Source: Dietzia sp. NCCP-2495 (GTDB lineage Bacteria > Actinomycetota > Actinomycetes > Mycobacteriales > Mycobacteriaceae). From it: a DNA stretch of 64,000 nucleotides. Numbering within the stretch: the first letter of the stretch is position 1; each line of letters begins with the position of its first letter. This document shows positions 6,211 through 16,027 of the stretch, piece by piece. The position numbers and the translations under genes are program-made. The notes under the pieces were generated by a model. The model ran no database searches and had not been told where the DNA came from. It was given only the letters and a program-made list of their open reading frames with translations. The DNA is taken from the NCBI RefSeq assembly GCF_026011735.1, contig NZ_BRVN01000002.1, positions 372,001 to 436,000 on the forward strand, read 5' to 3'.

Positions 6211-9200
6211 GTGGCCGGTTCCCAGTTCGTGCATCTGCACAATCACACCGAGTTCTCGATGCTCGACGGGATGGCGCAGATCGATCCCCTCTTCGCGGAG
6301 GCGTCCCGACTCGGGATGCCGGCGGTGGGGATGACGGACCACGGCAACATGTTCGGGTCCTCGGACTTCTACAAGCAGGCCAAGAAGGCGGGACTCAAGC
6401 CGATCATCGGCATCGAGGCCTACGTCGCGCCCGAGTCCCGCTTCGAGAAGAAGCGCATCCTGTGGGGCGAGAAGCACCAGAAGAGCGACGATGTCGCGGG
6501 CTCGGGTGCCTACACCCACATGACCATGGTCGCCGAGAACGCCACCGGTCTTCGCAACCTGTTCCGGTTGTCCTCCCTCGCCTCGTACGAGGGGCAGCTC
6601 GGCAAGTGGGCGCGCATGGACGCCGAGATCCTCGCCGAGTACTCGGAGGGCATCATCGCCACCTCCGGCTGCCCGTCCGGGGAGATCCAGACCCGGCTGC
6701 GCCTGGGCCACGTCAAGGAGGCCTACGAGGCCGCGGAGAAGTGGCAGTCCATCTTCGGCAAGGACAACTTCTTCCTCGAACTGATGGACCACGGGATCGA
6801 CATCGAGCGTCGGGTCCGCGAGGACCTGCTCAAGCTCGGTAAGGACCTGGGCATGCCGCCGCTGGTCACCAACGACTGCCACTACGTCACCCGCGACCAG
6901 GCACACGCCCACGAGGCCATGCTCTGCGTGCAGACCGGCAAGACCCTGGCCGATGAGGGACGCTTCAAGTTCGACGGCGACGGGTACTTCCTCAAATCCG
7001 CCGAGGAGATGCGCGCCCAGTGGGACTCGGAGGTCCCCGGCGGGTGCGACAACACGCTGTGGGTCGCCGAACGAGTCCAGCCGTACGACGAGATCTGGAC
7101 GCCGCAGGACCGGATGCCCGTGTTCCCCGTTCCCGAGGGGCACACGCAGGACTCCTGGCTCGCCGAGGAGGTCCAGCGCGGCCTCGAGTGGCGTTTCCCG
7201 AACGGTGTCCCGCAGGAGTACCTCGACCGCGCGAAGTTCGAGCTCGAGGTGATCAAGGGCAAGGGCTACCCCGGCTACTTCCTCGTGGTCGGCGACCTCA
7301 TCGACCACGCCCGGTCGATCGGCATCAAGGTCGGCCCGGGCCGAGGCTCCGCGGCCGGCGCGCTGGTGGCGTACGCGCTCAAGATCACCAACATCGACCC
7401 GATCGAGCACGGCCTGCTCTTCGAGAGGTTCCTCAACCCGGAGCGACCGTCCGCGCCGGATATCGATATCGACTTCGACGACCGCCGCCGTGGCGAGATG
7501 ATCCGCTACGCCTCCGACAAATGGGGCTCGGACAAGATCGCCCAGGTGATCACCTTCGGCACCATCAAGACCAAGGCCGCGATCAAGGACTCGGCTCGCG
7601 TGAACTTCGGTCAGCCCGGTTACGCGATCGCCGACCGGATCACCAAGGCGCTGCCACCGGCGATCATGGCCAAGGACATCCCGCTGTCCGGGATCACGGA
7701 CTCGTCGCACGAGCGGTACGGCGAGGCCGCCGAGGTGCGCTCGCTCATCGAGACCGATCCGGACGTCAAGCGGATCTACGAGACCGCCCGGGGCTTCGAG
7801 GGCATGGTCCGCCAGGCGGGCGTGCACGCGTGCGCGGTGATCATGTCCTCCGAGCCGCTGCTCGACGTGATCCCCATGTGGAAGCGCGCACAGGACGGCG
7901 CCCTCATCACCGGCTGGGACTACCCCTCCTGCGAGGACATCGGCCTGCTCAAGATGGACTTCCTGGGCCTGCGGAATCTCACCGTGATCGGTGACTGCCT
8001 GGAGAACATCAAGCTCAACCGCGGCGAGGAGATCGACCTCGACACGCTGTCGACCGACGATCAGGCCACCTACGACCTGCTCGCCCGTGGCGACACGCTC
8101 GGCGTGTTCCAGCTCGACTCCGGCGGAATGCGCGAGCTGCTCAAGCGCATGAAGCCCACCGGCTTCAACGACATCGTGGCCGCCCTCGCACTCTACCGAC
8201 CCGGGCCAATGGGCATGGGTACGCACTGGAACTACGCCGACCGTAAGAACGGCAAGCAGGAACTGGTGCCGATCCACCCCGAGCTCGAGGAACCGCTTAA
8301 GGACATTCTCGGCGAGACGCACGGCCTGATCGTGTACCAGGAGCAGATCATGGCCATCTCCCGCGAGCTCGCGGGATATACGGCCGGTGAGGCTGACGGT
8401 TTCCGTAAGGCCATGGGTAAGAAGAAGGCCGAGGTGCTGGCCGCCGAGTATGAGAAGTTCTCCGGCGGCATGTTCGAGCGGGGCTTCTCCAAGGACGCCG
8501 TCGACGCACTGTGGGGCACCATCGAGCCGTTTGCCTCGTACGCGTTCAACAAGTCGCACGCCGCCGGCTACGGCCTGGTCTCATTCTGGACCGGCTACCT
8601 CAAGGCCAACTACCCGGCCGAGTACATGGCCGCCCTGCTCACCTCCGTCGGTGACGACAAGGACAAGGCCGCGCTGTACCTGTCCAACTGTCGGCAGATG
8701 GGCATCAAGGTGCTGCCGCCCTCGGTCAACGACTCGCTCACCAACTTCGCGTCGGTGGGCAAGGACATCCGCTTCGGCATGGGCGCGGTGCGCAACGTCG
8801 GAGCCCACGTGGTGGAGTCCGTCGTAGCAGCCCGGGAGGCGAAGGGCGCCTTCACGGACTTCTCCGACTACCTGTCCAAGATCGACCAGACCGCGTGCAC
8901 CAAGAAGGTCACCGAATCGCTCATCAAGGCCGGGGCCTTCGACGCACTCGAGCATCCGCGCAAGGGCCTGTTCCTGATCCACGCAGACGCCGTCGAGTCG
9001 GTGATGTCCACCAAGAAGGCCGAGGCGGTGGGTCAGTTCGACCTGTTCGGCGGGGGAGACGACCCGGGCGAGGACTCGGGCTTCGGCGACGTGTTCGCGG
9101 TGAAGGTCCCCGACGAGGAGTGGGACACCAAGCAGAAGCTCGCGCTGGAACGCGAGATGCTCGGCCTCTACGTCTCGGGTCACCCGCTTGATGGACTCGA

Positions 9201-9759
9201 GGCGTCACTGGAAGCCAAGACGGACACGTCGATCGCGACCATCCACGAGGGCGAACTCGCGCACGGCACGGCGGTGACGATCGGCGGGATCATCTCGGGC
9301 GTCGACCGCCGGGTCAACAAGAACGGTGAGCCGTGGGCGATCGTCACGATCGAGGACTTCAACGGCAGTGTCGAAGTGCTGTTCTTCCCGAAGACCTACC
9401 GGATCGCCGCGATGGACATCGCCGAGGACGCGGTGGTGTTGGTCAAGGCACGCATCAACATCCGCGAGGACCGCGTCTCGGTGTTCGGGGACACACTCGA
9501 GGTGCCGGACCTGGTCGTGGGCGGCAACGGTGCGCCACTGGCCCTGACGCTGCCCACCCGCGTGTGCACCATCGAGACGGTCACCGCGCTCAAGCAGGTG
9601 CTCACCCGGCACCCCGGGCCCTCCGATGTGCACCTGCGACTGGTCAGCGGGGATTCGTCGACGGTGCTGCGCCTGGACGATCACCTGCGGGTCGAGACGT
9701 CGTCGTCGCTCATGGGTGACCTCAAGGCCCTTCTCGGGCCGGGCTGCCTCACCGGCTGA
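6211..9759 (+). CDS. dnaE: DNA polymerase III alpha subunit
   Basis: Replicative polymerase III alpha subunit (DnaE1 type), 1182 aa, full length. The N-terminal PHP domain starts with [15 protein letters not shown] and contains further His/Asp metal ligands such as MTDHGNMFG. The palm has [12 protein letters not shown] at about 415-426, with Asp417 and Asp419 as catalytic metal ligands. A helix-hairpin-helix region and a C-terminal OB fold ([18 protein letters not shown]) follow. GTG start with GTAGGAGG upstream; the ATG at 6203 is out of frame. The gene is conserved over its length, with no sign of the error-prone DnaE2 form. Confidence 0.97.
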
Positions 9760-9816
9760 CCTGTTCCCGTGGTCGCCAGGTGACTGACCGGTTGGCGGCT
9801 GGCGAGGGCACGGTGG

Positions 9817-9822
9817 AACACT
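9817..9822 (+). promoter_or_regulatory. Putative -10 for ilvA
   Basis: AACACT is followed by 7 nt and then the GTG start of ilvA. No Shine-Dalgarno is visible, so a leaderless transcript is likely. Confidence 0.4.
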
Positions 9823-9829
9823 GGACACC

Positions 9830-11104
9830 GTGACCTCCACTGACTCAGCCGCCGACCAGGTAGTAACCACGGACGATATCGACGCCGCCGCCCGGCGTAT
9901 CGGCGACGTGATCACGTACACGAGCCTGGACACGAGCGAGCGACTCAGCGAGCACACCGGGGCCCGGATCCTGCTCAAGCGTGAGGACCTACAGGATGTC
10001 CGCTCGTACAAAATCCGTGGCGCGTTCAACCTCATGGCGCAGCTGACCACCGACGAGCGCAGCGCCGGCGTGGTGACCGCGAGCGCCGGAAACCACGCCC
10101 AGGGCGTGGCGTTCGCCTGCCGGTCCCTCGGGATCAACGGCCGGATCTACGTCCCGAGCAACACGCCCAAGCAGAAGCGCGACCGCATCCTCGCGCACGG
10201 CCGGAACTGGGTCGAGCTGGTGGTGACCGGCTCGAACTTCGACGCGGCCCAGTCCGCGGCCTGGGCTGACGCCGAGCGCACCGGCGCGACCATGGTCCCG
10301 CCGTTCGACCATCCCGACACGATGGCGGGACAGGGCACGATCGCGGCCGAGATCCTGGCCCAGCTCGAAGAGACGCCAGACGCCGTGGTGGTCCCCGTTG
10401 GTGGCGGCGGGCTCCTCGGCGGCATCGCCACCTACCTGGCGGAATACGCCCCGGACTGCAAGGTCATCGCGGTGGAGCCGGCCGGTGCGGCGTCTCTGAC
10501 CGCCGCGCTCGAGGTGGGGGAGCCGACGACCCTCGATGACGTGGACACCTTCGTCGACGGGGCCTCGGTGGCGCGACTCGGCGAGTTCCCGTTCGGCGTC
10601 ATCTCCTCGATGAGTGAGCGTATCCAGGTCCTCACGGTCGACGAGGGCGCCGTGTGCACCGAGATGCTCGAGCTGTACCAGAACGAGGGGATCATCGCCG
10701 AGCCCGCGGGCGCGCTGTCCGTGACGGCGCTGGAGAAGCTCGACATCGAGCCCGGCGCCACCGTCGTGTGCATCATCTCGGGCGGGAACAACGACGTCTC
10801 CCGCTACAGCGAGATCATCGAGCGCTCGCTCGTCCACCGCGGGCTCAAGCATTACTTCCTCGTGAACTTCCCGCAGGAGCCGGGCCAGCTGCGCCGCTTC
10901 CTCGACGAAATCCTGGGCCCCGAGGACGACATCACCCAGTTCGAGTACCTCAAGCGCAACAACCGCGAGTACGGGGCCGCGCTCGTCGGTATCGAGCTGG
11001 GCTCGGCGACGGGCCTGCACTCGCTGCTCGAGCGGATGGAGGCCTCCCGCATCGACTGCGAGCGCCTCGAACCCGGCACCGCGGCGTACGAGTACCTGAC
11101 GTAG
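9830..11104 (+). CDS. ilvA: Threonine dehydratase (biosynthetic)
   Basis: PLP-dependent threonine ammonia-lyase, first step of isoleucine synthesis (threonine to 2-oxobutanoate), 424 aa. The PLP lysine is Lys61 in RSYKIRGAFNLM. The glycine-rich phosphate loop VPVGGGGLLGG is near residue 188. SGGNNDVSRY closes the catalytic domain, and the last 90 residues (HYFLVNFPQEPGQLRRFL ...) form an ACT-like regulatory domain, so feedback control by isoleucine is expected. Only one ACT unit is present, the short corynebacterial form. It stands alone and is followed directly by a strong hairpin. Confidence 0.95.
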   Translation: MTSTDSAADQVVTTDDIDAAARRIGDVITYTSLDTSERLSEHTGARILLKREDLQDVRSYKIRGAFNLMAQLTTDERSAGVVTASAGNHAQGVAFACRSLGINGRIYVPSNTPKQKRDRILAHGRNWVELVVTGSNFDAAQSAAWADAERTGATMVPPFDHPDTMAGQGTIAAEILAQLEETPDAVVVPVGGGGLLGGIATYLAEYAPDCKVIAVEPAGAASLTAALEVGEPTTLDDVDTFVDGASVARLGEFPFGVISSMSERIQVLTVDEGAVCTEMLELYQNEGIIAEPAGALSVTALEKLDIEPGATVVCIISGGNNDVSRYSEIIERSLVHRGLKHYFLVNFPQEPGQLRRFLDEILGPEDDITQFEYLKRNNREYGAALVGIELGSATGLHSLLERMEASRIDCERLEPGTAAYEYLT

Positions 11105-11198: not shown

Positions 11199-11669
11199 TC
11201 AGTTGTCGGCAACGTTCTCGAGGGTGTCGAAGAAGTTGCCGATGGACGACTCGGGGATCTCGCCCAGCGAACCGGTAGCTCCCTGGTCCTCGGCGGACAT
11301 CGACTCTATGGAGCCCCCGACGACGTTGCCGAATCCCTGCGGATTGAGGAGCCCCGCCACCTCGCCGATCGAGCCCGCGGAACCGGAGGTCGAGCCCTGG
11401 GCGGTCTGAGCGCCTTCGGTGAGAGAGCCCGGATTGAGGAATGCCCCGAGCGAGCCAGCGCTGCCGGTGTCGGCCCCCTCTGCCGTGAGCGATCCGGTCA
11501 CCGAACCTTCGACGGCACCGAGATTGAGAATGCCGAACAGGGAGCCGAAGTCCGGGCCGCTTGCGTCCTCTTGCGCTCCGGCCGCCGGAGCGCCGAGTGC
11601 AACGGCGAGCCCGAGGGCGCCGGCCACGGCCGCCGACTTGGTGAACATGCGGGTGGAGATGGAAGCCAT
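11199..11669 (-). CDS. Small secreted protein with GSxG repeats
   Basis: Secreted protein, 156 aa, function unknown. A Sec signal peptide is clear (basic start, hydrophobic GALGLAVALGAP, cleavage near AGA/QED at about residue 33). The mature part is a low-complexity chain of Gly, Ser, Ala and Glu with an irregular repeat of about 35 residues: GSAGSLGAFLNPGSL, then GSAGSIGEVAGLLNP, then GATGSLGEIPES. There is no Cys and no catalytic motif. RBS GAAGGGGA precedes the ATG. The same GS(V/I/L)G motif occurs in other exported proteins of this window. It is convergent with ilvA. Confidence 0.8.
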   Translation of the reverse strand: MASISTRMFTKSAAVAGALGLAVALGAPAAGAQEDASGPDFGSLFGILNLGAVEGSVTGSLTAEGADTGSAGSLGAFLNPGSLTEGAQTAQGSTSGSAGSIGEVAGLLNPQGFGNVVGGSIESMSAEDQGATGSLGEIPESSIGNFFDTLENVADN

Positions 11670-11997: not shown

Positions 11998-12735
11998 TCA
12001 GAACCGACCGAGAGATCCGGACCTGAGGATTCCGCGGGGGTCTCGTTCGGGCTCGCTGCCGCCTTCGTATCCACCGAATGCCCAGACCGTGCTTCCGCTG
12101 GAGCAGAGGAAGAGGGCGCCGGCCTGGAAGTCCTCACGTGTCCCGGATGCCGGGTTGCCGAGGTTCGCGCTCCAGTTACGGGTGGCATTGTTGGCCAGCG
12201 TGAACGAGGCCATCTGCCCGGTCTGTCCCTTGACCTTGGCGGCGGCGAAACGCTCGGAGATGGCCTTGCTGGTGCCGTATGCGGGGCCGAAGAGTGGTGC
12301 GACGCTCCCTCCCGGTAGGAGGTTGGTGACCTCCTCCATGTTCATGTCGACCGTGATGCTGATCGAACCGGAGATGGACGGGGTGACCGTGGTTCCCGGC
12401 CGGGGACGGAGGGGGAAGTTTTTGTAGTACTCGAGGGAGGACTGCACGACGTCCGCCGGGGCCACGGTGCCCCCGACGTCGGCGGTCGAGGGGTAGCCGC
12501 GACAGTCCAGCGAGGCCCCGGTACGGTTGGTGAAGGTCCCGGAGATTGACGTGGCGGCGGCCCCGGCGCCGTTCACCGTCACGGTGCCGGCACTGGGAAC
12601 CACGCGGACCACGACACTGTCCGGAACATCCCCGGGGATCGTGGTCTGGGCATTTCCGGTGGCGGTGGTGGTCAGGAGAGCGGCGGCGGCCAACCCCAGG
12701 CCGGTGAGCGCACGAGTGTGGCGTCGGGTGATCAT
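11998..12735 (-). CDS. Exported protein, tandem family member A
   Basis: Exported protein of unknown function, 245 aa, last of three adjacent paralogues on this strand. Signal peptide: Arg-rich start, GLGLAAAALLTTTATG, cleavage near GNA/QTT at about residue 27. Shared family features, in order: a beta-rich N-terminal part ending in FTNRTGASLDCRG (first Cys), EYYKNFPLRP, VTNLLPGGSV, KGQTGQMASF, and a C-terminal AGALFLCSSG...WAFGGYEG (second Cys). The two Cys could form a disulfide. It ends in SGSLGRF. RBS GAAGGA lies upstream of the ATG. Spacing to member B is 29 nt. Confidence 0.8.
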   Translation of the reverse strand: MITRRHTRALTGLGLAAAALLTTTATGNAQTTIPGDVPDSVVVRVVPSAGTVTVNGAGAAATSISGTFTNRTGASLDCRGYPSTADVGGTVAPADVVQSSLEYYKNFPLRPRPGTTVTPSISGSISITVDMNMEEVTNLLPGGSVAPLFGPAYGTSKAISERFAAAKVKGQTGQMASFTLANNATRNWSANLGNPASGTREDFQAGALFLCSSGSTVWAFGGYEGGSEPERDPRGILRSGSLGRF

Positions 12736-12764
12736 GGTCGTCCTTCGGTTCGAGGTGGAGCGGG

Positions 12765-13466
12765 TCAGCGCGGTCCCACGCCGGGCGGGGGATCGGTGGG
12801 CACGACGTTGCCGTGGTAACCAGCGAACACGTACGAGTTGCCCCCTCCTTCGCAGAAGAACAGCGCGCCCGGCTGGAAGGCGGTGCGGATGCCCGTGCTC
12901 GGGTAGGTCAGGTCGGCATACCAACTGGTGGTCTGACCGGCGCCGACGGTGAAGTCGATCGAGTTGGATCCGGTGACGATCGACCCGGTGTGGCCACGCG
13001 TGTGCGCGCCGTCCTGGGCGTTGCGGAGATCGACGAGTGCCGACGTGGGGCTGCCGAGGGAGGCGGAGAGACTGCCGGTGGGGATGAGGTCGTACACGCT
13101 GCCCACTCCGATGTTGCCGACCACCGGCGCATCGATACCGCCGGGGGCGAAGATGTTCTTCGCGTAATAGTCCATGGCGGCTACCACGATGCGTGCGTCG
13201 GTGACCTGGTTCGGGGCACGGCCCGTGGCCGTGGGTTGGGAACACCGCAGGGAGAACGTCGCCCGATTGCTGATCGACCCGGAGACGCGGCCGCCGCTCT
13301 CCTGGCCGACGCTGACGCTGGCGAGCGTGCTGTCCGTGATCACCACGACGCCACTCTGGTCGGCGCCGGGGATGCGGGCCTGCGCGGCGTGTGGGGTGAC
13401 CGTCGCAGTGAGCGCGATAGCGGAGAGGGTGGCGGCGGTGAGCCGTCCGGAGAGGGATGGTGCCAT
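12765..13466 (-). CDS. Exported protein, tandem family member B
   Basis: Middle paralogue, 233 aa, unknown function. Signal peptide LTAATLSAIALTATVT with likely cleavage at AQA/RIP about residue 30. It has the same skeleton as its neighbours: NRATFSLRCSQ (first Cys), MDYYAKNIFAP, YDLIPTGSLSA, HTRGHTGSIV, then AGQTTSWYADL and PGALFFCEGGG...VFAGYHG (second Cys). It is the most diverged at the C-terminus (Pro-rich, no GSLG motif). Spacing is 29 nt to A and 53 nt to C, all in one direction, so the three are probably one transcript. Confidence 0.8.
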   Translation of the reverse strand: MAPSLSGRLTAATLSAIALTATVTPHAAQARIPGADQSGVVVITDSTLASVSVGQESGGRVSGSISNRATFSLRCSQPTATGRAPNQVTDARIVVAAMDYYAKNIFAPGGIDAPVVGNIGVGSVYDLIPTGSLSASLGSPTSALVDLRNAQDGAHTRGHTGSIVTGSNSIDFTVGAGQTTSWYADLTYPSTGIRTAFQPGALFFCEGGGNSYVFAGYHGNVVPTDPPPGVGPR

Positions 13467-13519
13467 GTGGGAGCTGCTTTCAGGAGCGGTGGGTGGGCGG
13501 CGGCGATCGGCGGGGGGCG

Positions 13520-14257
13520 TCAGCTGCCGAATCGTCCGAACCGGGACAGGTCCAGTGAGCCGGTCCCGCCCTGCGCCGGGGTATCGGGAGAGAAGCCCGC
13601 GTACACGTAATTGACTCCGCCGAACGTGCAGCCGACCAGGGCGCCGGCGTCGAAGGGCTGGCGACTCCCCTGGGATACCGGCGCCAGGGCGACGGAGACG
13701 CTCGTGCTGGAGTTCGCCGGAATCGACACATTCGCGGTGTGTCGGCCCGTCTGTCCCTGCATCCTCGCGTCGTCGAACTTCGAGGCGATCACGGATCGGG
13801 AGCCCTGTTCCGCCCAGATGTGGCGGGCCGCCGCGGCGGGAAGCATGTCGGTGACGCTCCCGAGCGGGACGGTGATGACACCGACGATCTGGATGTTGTT
13901 CGTGGTGATCTTGGGCTCCGGATACACCGGGTAGCGCGAATAGTGGTCCACCGACCGGGAGATCACCTCCGCAGGTGCGACCTCGATCGATCCGCCGCCG
14001 TCGAAGCCTCCGCAGGTCAGCTGCCCACCCGTGTTGTTCTGAACCGTGACGAGAACCCGGCCGGCGGCGACATCCGGCTGCGCCACCGCGACGCTCACGC
14101 GCGGGTCTCCGGTGGTGACCACGTAGGACGCCCGGTCCGTCGGGGCGTGGACACCAGGAACCTGAGAATTGGCTACTCCTGGAAGGGAAATCATCGCAAG
14201 GCCGGCGCACGCGGCGGACACGGCGGTCCGGACGGTTGTCCTGCTTTTCGAGCGCAC
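13520..14257 (-). CDS. Exported protein, tandem family member C
   Basis: First gene of the three-paralogue set, 245 aa from the GTG at 14257, which has AGGAG seven bases upstream; an ATG 30 codons earlier would put charged residues before the signal and is less likely. Signal peptide AVSAACAGLAMISLPGVANS, cleavage near ANS/QVP. Family features: VQNNTGGQLTCGG (first Cys), DHYSRYPVYPEP, VTDMLPAAAA, MQGQTGRHTA, FDAGALVGCTFGG...VYAGFSP (second Cys). It ends with GTGSLDLSRFGRFGS. It diverges from the exported protein gene at 14450 across 192 bases, which may carry shared control. Confidence 0.8.
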   Translation of the reverse strand: MRSKSRTTVRTAVSAACAGLAMISLPGVANSQVPGVHAPTDRASYVVTTGDPRVSVAVAQPDVAAGRVLVTVQNNTGGQLTCGGFDGGGSIEVAPAEVISRSVDHYSRYPVYPEPKITTNNIQIVGVITVPLGSVTDMLPAAAARHIWAEQGSRSVIASKFDDARMQGQTGRHTANVSIPANSSTSVSVALAPVSQGSRQPFDAGALVGCTFGGVNYVYAGFSPDTPAQGGTGSLDLSRFGRFGS

Positions 14258-14449
14258 TAAGTGACTCCTGATATTGATAACGGGGGCGCGATGGAAAGAT
14301 GGCCCTCTGGCCACGGGTTTGTGTGCTGGCTGTAATCTACGACACAATAAGCGAATGTTACAACTGGCCTACAGTCTAGGTCAGCTTCGGGCAGGTCGAC
14401 CTCTGGGTCGGGACTCGACGCACGCTGTACGTCAGATAAGGGGATTGAT

Positions 14450-16027
14450 ATGCGAGGGTTCTCGGCCGCCGGTGCGGTGATCGGCACGGGCGCCATGGTG
14501 GTGTCCCTGGTGGCGGTACCCGCGGCTTTGGCCCAGTCGACCGAGATCGACCGCACCGTCCGGGTCACGCACAGCTGCGTAACGAGGGGGGCCGGTGGCA
14601 CCGCGGCCACGATCTCCCCCAATGACATCCAGGTGACCTACCCGGAATCGGTGAGGCCGGGGGAGGTCTACACCGCCACCATCTGGCCGGGGGAGATGAG
14701 ATCGGGTAGCGAGACCGGGAGGTTCACCTACGCGCTGGCGCTGCCCCCGAATGTCGACGTGATCAACGTGGCCAACGGGGGCGGGGACTACGGACTGCTG
14801 ACCAGCAGTGGCAGGAGCCTGGCGGTCGAGCTGGTCGACTCCTCCGGAGATCCTCATGTCGACGGCACGCACGTCCGTATCTCCGCGGGGATGACACCGA
14901 ATTTCGGCGGCGACACCGCCAGCCACCTGACTCTCCCGTACCAGTGGGGTGTCGGGCTCCACTCGCGAGAGAACACGAACTTCCGGCTCCCCAAGGTAGA
15001 GGTGACCCTGCGCGCCCCGGTGGACCGCACGCCGACCCCCATCAAGATCGGGCTCCACGGTGGTACCGGAGGTCAGTCAAACGGGACGAACAACGCACTC
15101 CAGTACCTGCACACGGGTACCTGGTCCCTCGGTCAGCGGTATCACTACTGCGGCAGGACCTACCCGGCGGGATCGGACTCGCTCACCGCAACGGCCATCA
15201 CGTCCGACGCACCGCTCGTGGCGCAGTCGTCCGCGGAAATGATCGGCGAGGATCGGGCGGTGGCGGGTGGCGAGAATACCTCGCTGATCGCCCGGGTCGC
15301 CGTCTCCGGGGCGTCGGGGCGGGAGATGAGTCGAGGGCGGGTCACGTTCCGCCGCACGGACACCGGTGAGGTTCTCGGCACCGCGACGCCGAACCGGGAC
15401 TCGGGAGAGGCGGTCCTGACCCGCTCGTTCCCCGGGACGATGGACGGGTACTCATTCGAGGTCACGGCGACCTACGACGGGGTGGTCCGCGGGGGTGTCC
15501 AGTCCATCGCCGGCAGCAGCGCCAGCGGATCCCTGGGCGTGACGATCAACCCCAATCGGATCGCCTACCTCGTCAACATCACCCAGGCACGCCGACTTCC
15601 GGACAGCGGCGGCTCGGTCCCGGTCGAGCTCACCACCACCATCTCGAGGCCCGGTGGCGGTGCATTTGCCACCGGTCTGCAGGCGCAGCTGTACCGCGAC
15701 GGTCAGCCGGTGGGGGCCCCGCGTCCGGCGACCTCGACCATGACATTCACCGATAGCCTCCCCCGCGCCGAAGCGGCCCGCACCTACTACTACGAGGTCA
15801 AGTTGCTGCCCTTGACGGTCGGGGAGTTCGAGCACGGTGGTCAGACCGCAGGCGCGACCGGCGTGATCATCACGGGGACCTCGCCGACGGTTCCCGAGGA
15901 CCTCGAGTTCGTGGACGCCCCCTGGAACTCCTCGGAGATCTTCGTCCCGGGTGGCCTCGAGGGATCGCTCGAGTTCGGCGCCGGTTCGATCGGGAGTGTG
16001 TCGCCGTTCGTCACCGGGGCGTCCTAG
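14450..16027 (+). CDS. Large exported protein with Ig-like domain
   Basis: Secreted protein, 525 aa, function unknown. Signal peptide GAVIGTGAMVVSLVAVPAALA, cleavage before QST at about residue 29. The N-terminal half is beta-rich and recalls bacterial surface 'VTYP...VRPGEVYTATI' domains with two Cys (HSCVTRG and YHYCGRT). Residues about 250-345 look like a bacterial Ig-like repeat (ALVAQSSAEM...GRVTFRRTDTGEVLGTA...VTATYDG). The C-terminus carries EGSLEFGAGSIGSVSPF, the GSxG motif seen in other exported proteins here. RBS AAGGGG precedes the ATG. No membrane anchor or sortase signal is visible. Confidence 0.82.
   Translation: MRGFSAAGAVIGTGAMVVSLVAVPAALAQSTEIDRTVRVTHSCVTRGAGGTAATISPNDIQVTYPESVRPGEVYTATIWPGEMRSGSETGRFTYALALPPNVDVINVANGGGDYGLLTSSGRSLAVELVDSSGDPHVDGTHVRISAGMTPNFGGDTASHLTLPYQWGVGLHSRENTNFRLPKVEVTLRAPVDRTPTPIKIGLHGGTGGQSNGTNNALQYLHTGTWSLGQRYHYCGRTYPAGSDSLTATAITSDAPLVAQSSAEMIGEDRAVAGGENTSLIARVAVSGASGREMSRGRVTFRRTDTGEVLGTATPNRDSGEAVLTRSFPGTMDGYSFEVTATYDGVVRGGVQSIAGSSASGSLGVTINPNRIAYLVNITQARRLPDSGGSVPVELTTTISRPGGGAFATGLQAQLYRDGQPVGAPRPATSTMTFTDSLPRAEAARTYYYEVKLLPLTVGEFEHGGQTAGATGVIITGTSPTVPEDLEFVDAPWNSSEIFVPGGLEGSLEFGAGSIGSVSPFVTGAS

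Follow-up and report, generated by a model that had tools for sequence, protein, structure and literature searches.

A fixed three-gene cassette of exported paralogues and its divergent partner in Dietzia suggest an undescribed cell-surface structure

The locus studied here raises the question of what three adjacent, dissimilar genes for exported proteins may build, and whether they build it together. It lies in the window, a stretch of 64,000 nucleotides of contig NZ_BRVN01000002.1 of Dietzia sp. NCCP-2495 (G000 in the genome set). The three open reading frames of the original prediction, which had been made from the sequence alone, were recovered at the same positions and lengths: member A (11998..12735, 245 aa), member B (12765..13466, 233 aa) and member C (13520..14257, 245 aa). 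All three lie on the minus strand, which the prediction had not mentioned, and a plus-strand reading of the same coordinates gives stops or an unrelated open frame. The order of transcription is C, B, A, and we refer to C as the first cassette gene (class 1), to B as the second (class 2) and to A, by its position, as the third (class 3). C starts with GTG, its frame extends open slightly farther upstream, and its product ends in ...FGRFGS. The N-terminus of each protein carries the expected Sec-type signal, as judged by eye and by a hydrophobicity scan.

The low identity claimed for the three members was confirmed by a three-way alignment (30% for both A-B and A-C, about 30% overall). A search of the window's genome with A as query recovered C at 2.7e-20 and B at 6.2e-17, with no further match at E <= 10; the paralogy is therefore far above chance. 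Among the motifs described, GxTG, YY/HY and (A/P)GAL-x-x-C were seen among A, B and C; they were found to be looser in the wider family. The conserved cysteine pair was confirmed. Past residue 30, every one of the 51 triplet members of the 17 complete loci has two cysteines and no more, and neither C78 nor C211 varies in an alignment of 43 members, which covers the triplet proteins save nine of the 51 (those of G013a, G016b and G002p), leaves out G003 and includes one lone protein of G008.

We then asked whether the family has a name. A, B and C gave nothing at E <= 1 in Pfam and NCBIfam, C had one match in PHROGs (E 0.21), and the triplet-family profiles found no meaningful match among PDB sequences (best E 0.1). 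A Pfam scan of the 43 family members hit four families with one member each (best E 0.004), and the three homologues on plasmid NZ_CP015454.1 are all annotated as 'hypothetical protein'. The triplet family is thus without a name in the libraries used (Pfam, NCBIfam, PHROGs and PDB sequences), and the view of the three genes as old tandem paralogues of an unnamed exported family is supported by these searches, by the plasmid annotations and by the tree described below. The four-part locus, formed by the triplet and a divergent gene, is not named in the titles and abstract openings that searches of the open-licence Dietzia literature listed, and the accessible part of PMC12472514 holds nothing that bears on the cassette. 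A phage origin was also considered and set aside: one class-2 protein, searched in a phage collection, had no match.

Like the constant order of the three classes and the larger superfamily reported below, the divergent gene is absent from the original prediction. It encodes a large exported protein of 525 aa, D (14450..16027, plus strand), and faces the first triplet gene. Divergent promoters are presumed in the intergenic region between them (14258..14449, no strand assigned), in which a scan for the sigma-70 consensus found none. Downstream of the triplet lies a small exported protein of 156 aa (11199..11669, minus strand), followed by dnaE- and ilvA-like genes (6211..11104, plus strand; names given by eye). 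The small protein is an optional neighbour, with homologues below only 4 of the 16 other cassettes (G002a, G012a, G013a and G017a).

Complete triplets were found at 17 loci in 11 of the 23 Dietzia genomes, five of which carry two or three cassettes each; G002b and its plasmid near-copy form a non-independent pair among the 17. Gene order was kept at all 17 loci, the intergenic gaps were 18–89 bp throughout (start codons of the relatives were picked by a script heuristic), and a D homologue was divergent and faced the first gene in every case (in G006, D runs off the contig). ORFs that match the dnaE- and ilvA-like genes in size and order adjoin the cassettes G002a, G012a, G013a and G017a, which places five of the 17 cassettes at the same chromosome site by that measure. 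The plasmid copy among the 17 is on NZ_CP015454.1 of D. psychralcaliphila ILA-1 (L116, 453-6402), a MOBF plasmid typed as mobilizable; its third gene has an apparent frameshift near the end. One gene separates this plasmid cassette from an MpaB-family oxygenase gene. Presence in the genus is patchy: among the 15 near-complete genomes, nine have a full triplet and six are without it, and in three of these (G004, G009 and G010) we found no triplet-family gene, save one weak match in G010. As for incomplete loci, a third-class gene lies at a contig edge in G003, a lone triplet-family member without any D match occurs in G008, and a triplet-family fragment adjoins a D gene in G021. We also observed that in L124 (G021) and L044 (G020) D adjoins no more than the remains of a third-class gene, which would fit a loss of the first two genes; both are short contigs, in which an assembly error is possible.

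The prediction had proposed looking for the triplet in Dietzia, Gordonia, Rhodococcus and Corynebacterium. Among the nearest 61 genomes the matches were confined to one of 36 genera, Dietzia. A first scan of the genome collection gave no match; the search with twelve class-2 proteins gave four loci, all from Dietzia (two in Dietzia sp. SLG310A2-38A2, one each in D. alimentaria and D. aurantiaca). At the level of the order (397 genomes including the window's own), 21 of the 396 others matched, none better than E 7.6e-4; nearly all of these matches cover the first 100 residues, which form the signal-peptide part, and the ORFs of the 19 of these 21 genomes whose locus was read look like unrelated exported proteins. 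At the level of the class (394 genomes) there was, besides the window's own genome, one weak match (G462, E 3.9e-4, residues 111-208). Both searches scored only about six candidates per genome, so that very distant relatives could escape them; within this scope, nothing convincing was found outside Dietzia.

We built a tree of 53 proteins, which leaves out G020 (a fragment) and three proteins of the compact type described below. The labels of the first, second and third genes changed 1, 1 and 2 times on this tree, against a mean of 14.5 after shuffling; the first, second and third genes are three paralogue classes, save a few third genes on long branches, the window's A among them. In particular, G000_3 (the window's A), G011_3 and G016a_3 fell outside the main third-gene clade, and G000_3, itself on a long branch, adjoined class 1 (support 88/77); the long branches make the placement of these three genes unsure. 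Class 3 appeared as one group in only 12% of the bootstrap trees, and the window's A was assigned to it by position and by the class-3 alignment. In each class the cassettes of the dnaE-ilvA site were separate from the others, even within one genome, and in the five multi-cassette genomes the members clustered with those of the same cassette type and not with those of their own genome.

In five pairs of related cassettes dN/dS was 0.06-0.32; the top value comes from the plasmid copy's third gene, with its apparent frameshift, and the synonymous distance exceeds 1 in several pairs. The genes are therefore constrained and under purifying selection. The distance matrices of classes 1, 2 and 3 (17 loci) and of D (13 loci) were correlated at r 0.82-0.91, as high as in none of 2000 permutations, a correlation that is also expected from common descent alone.

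We next focused on the partner D. D-type matches were present in 20 of the 23 Dietzia genomes, some of them to one region only and some without a triplet. D is variable: in an alignment of 13 of the 17 D proteins, at least two versions were without one stretch, which holds an Ig-like region in the others. Its AlphaFold2 model, built from 5 sequences, was poor overall (pLDDT 54) but mostly at pLDDT 65-90 in two Ig-like regions of its C-terminal half. The best Foldseek match was 3lso, a putative membrane-anchored protein of Corynebacterium diphtheriae (E 4.5e-7, with a TM-score of only 0.23). The window's D had no significant match in Pfam; one of the 13 D proteins, from another cassette, matched PF16640 (Big_3_5) at 1.3e-5, and the plasmid homologue is annotated as 'Ig-like domain-containing protein'. 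Homology between D and the triplet was considered and rejected, the best match (score 24.1) being nine columns at the C-terminal tails. Two side observations concern D itself. The window's genome has a second D-like gene (G000:C26:8220-9899; L121:8226-10214, minus strand), which ends in GSLGS and lies on a contig with no triplet-family match. The N-terminal part of D also has relatives in another family of the order, encoded by ORFs of about 230-244 aa (L126-L128).

The fold of the triplet proteins was approached through A. Its AlphaFold2 model, from a 15-sequence alignment, reached a pLDDT of 71, with 87 of 245 residues at pLDDT >= 90; strands flank a helical insert at about residues 94-168, partly of low confidence, and both cysteines are within strands. 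This moderate model suggests an Ig-like beta-sandwich with a helical insert. Its structural neighbours were generic Ig-like domains with Z up to 6.7, in a range (Z < 8) that is common by chance and functionally uninformative, and Foldseek gave nothing under E 0.001. Exported Ig-like proteins as such are common.

A set of compact exported proteins (170-256 aa) shares the motifs N-x-(S/T)-G-x-x-L-x-C, then A-x-x-x-G-x-x-G, then A-x-x-x-C. With signal peptides removed, the triplet profile matched the compact profile over the part that holds both cysteines (E 1.1e-6, score 47.5), against scores of 13.1 for the reversed profile and 15.2 for the best of 200 column shuffles. Per class, the match was strong for class 3 alone (E 8.6e-7) and weaker for class 1 (E 0.0022) and class 2 (E 0.004). 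The compact-family profile matched 21 of the 23 Dietzia genomes and none of 35 other genera; a mature-domain profile confirmed compact members in 19 of the 21, G018 having been left out of that step and the G006 locus being the triplet itself. These comparisons place the triplet in a wider superfamily of exported domains that we have seen only in Dietzia. In the window's genome the compact proteins adjoin a purA-like gene (by eye), and three other compact-protein loci adjoin an ORF of the same size. Most of the other superfamily members examined were stand-alone ORFs with one domain. Near the purA-like gene of the window's genome (contig C29, L123:2927-4408, minus strand) we also found a 493-aa exported ORF with three tandem compact domains, the one case of a three-domain chain among the loci examined; this chain echoes the three-gene arrangement.

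The C-terminal ends are a further common feature. All 17 class 1 proteins have a Gly-Ser C-terminus. In class 2 the C-terminus is GSLGS in 6 of 17 cassettes and GSVGS in one, and the tail is nearly absent in G002a, G012a, G013a and G017a. In class 3, six cassettes of the dnaE-ilvA type (G000, G002a, G011, G012a, G013a and G017a) have a terminal GS-(L/V/M/T)-G-x-x, and most other cassettes have GSLG-type motifs with an acidic or Gly-rich stretch after them. The accessible sections of PMC11066868 describe O-mycoloylation sites in flexible Ser/Gly-rich stretches and liken them to eukaryotic acylation motifs. Such stretches were found in class 1 (17/17) and class 2 (7/17), which is a weak criterion for O-mycoloylated proteins, because the same sections report no strict consensus. 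The raw DNA pattern for GSLGS was not enriched over the backwards control (G000: 9 matches, control 20; G005: 8 matches, control 17). Six of the 9 matches in G000 and 5 of the 8 in G005 are at a true stop; all six in G000 end ORFs of at least 292 codons, several of them exported by eye, and only two of the five in G005 end long ORFs. A common C-terminal tail on unrelated exported Dietzia proteins is possible, and the counts are no more than suggestive. The six long ORFs of the window's genome that end in GSLGS or GSFGS (L167, L169-L173) include phosphatase-, glycosidase-, sulfatase- and peptidase-like proteins by eye.

The triplet and D suggest an undescribed cell-surface structure. Our preferred reading, a tentative one with somewhat less than an even chance, is that A, B and C have adapted to one another as subunits that cannot replace each other, and that they form a single exported assembly at the surface with D. 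We favour one assembly because the gene set, the order and D are constant and share a history; separate binders in one operon would also fit these facts. Several observations tell against it: the unclean class 3, the lone member of G008, the near-complete genomes without a full triplet, the apparent frameshift in the plasmid copy, and tails that differ between classes and cassettes. Each subunit, exported by its sequence and with one conserved Cys pair, would fold into the Ig-like beta-sandwich with helical insert that the model predicts, with the disulfide closing after export. The three subunits would bind one another and D, and D would serve as a longer stalk or as the ligand-binding part. 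The Gly/Ser tails may act as flexible mycomembrane anchors, perhaps via O-mycoloylation of Ser, and the likely role of the whole would be to bring the cell into contact with surfaces, substrates or other cells. A more elaborate version, which we regard as improbable as a whole, is a partly mobile, genus-specific four-gene system that makes a surface hetero-oligomer of three paralogous one-disulfide Ig-like subunits with a multi-Ig partner, in which the Gly-Ser tail would fix the structure in the mycomembrane as a lipid-attachment signal shared with other exported Dietzia proteins, and the three-domain chain would be a fused version of this three-part layout.

Three other accounts have to be weighed against the single assembly. 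The three proteins may be independent secreted binders of different ligands (nutrient, metal, lipid or polysaccharide), adjacent through a common promoter and not as a complex. The lone member in G008 and the stand-alone, one-domain form of most other superfamily members examined fit this account, and operon linkage and co-inheritance require no contact; against it stand the same order and the same divergent D at all 17 complete loci and the lack of member exchange between cassette types in the tree, and we consider it rather unlikely. Phages, predators or competing bacteria may instead have shaped a partly mobile surface set, which would then be a variable antigen or an antagonism module; this would explain the copy on a mobilizable plasmid, the two or three different cassettes in each of five genomes and the patchy presence. 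The dN/dS range given above speaks against it, with no diversifying selection at the whole-gene level, and the five of 17 cassettes at one site (by ORF size and order) make inheritance look partly vertical, so that we judge this module to be quite improbable.

The least probable account in our view is a mycomembrane channel, in which the triplet would form a hetero-oligomeric pore in place of the MspA porins. In its favour, PF09203 (MspA) matched 0 of 23 Dietzia genomes and 11 of 14 genomes of other genera of the same family, which served as a positive control, and a channel was purified from D. maris (PMC4901239), where its gene is not named. Against it, the three near-complete Dietzia genomes named above are without a triplet-family gene, the model of A has no predicted long beta hairpin, and the comparison with two MspA proteins gave no profile similarity (score 12.6); moreover, the available portion of PMC9233653 assigns the Dietzia channels to the MspA superfamily, which is at odds with the PF09203 result. 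The outer surface of mycolate-bearing bacteria has been little mapped, and here a four-part exported locus stays together at several sites of the chromosome as well as on a plasmid; if the surface assembly is real, the locus would offer a clean system for multi-subunit structures built outside the mycomembrane, and its Gly-Ser tails bear on whether the lipid anchoring of proteins known in Corynebacterium operates in Dietzia.

Finally, we compared the locus with known systems. The MspA porins (PF09203) are, like the triplet proteins, exported, of similar size, from the same bacterial family and in some genomes encoded by neighbouring paralogues; their profile matched 11 of the 61 genomes, all 11 from other genera of the family, several with neighbouring copies. 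Unlike them, the triplet proteins have a conserved Cys pair, and they share no sequence or profile similarity with the porins: kinship was rejected at the sequence level, with no MspA match for A, B and C at E <= 1 or for the 43 members at E <= 0.1. That MspA is missing among the Foldseek chains shown for A is no evidence either way. D resembles the Big_3_5 (PF16640) proteins in its two modelled Ig-like regions, in the single D protein of 13 that matched and in the annotation of the plasmid homologue; the window's D differs from them in its lack of a significant Pfam match and in its N-terminal relatives, the ORFs of another family mentioned above. The periplasmic pilus chaperones YadV and FimC are exported and have the Ig-like beta-sandwich that is modelled for A (Z about 6). 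Chaperones of this type take part in making surface fibres. What A would share with them is a common fold alone, at Z in the chance range, and A has no PDB sequence match. The O-mycoloylated envelope proteins of Corynebacterium have flexible Ser/Gly-rich stretches and belong, like the triplet, to mycolate-bearing bacteria (PMC11066868, in its accessible sections); the likeness is one of tail composition, and by analogy the Dietzia tails might carry a similar modification.
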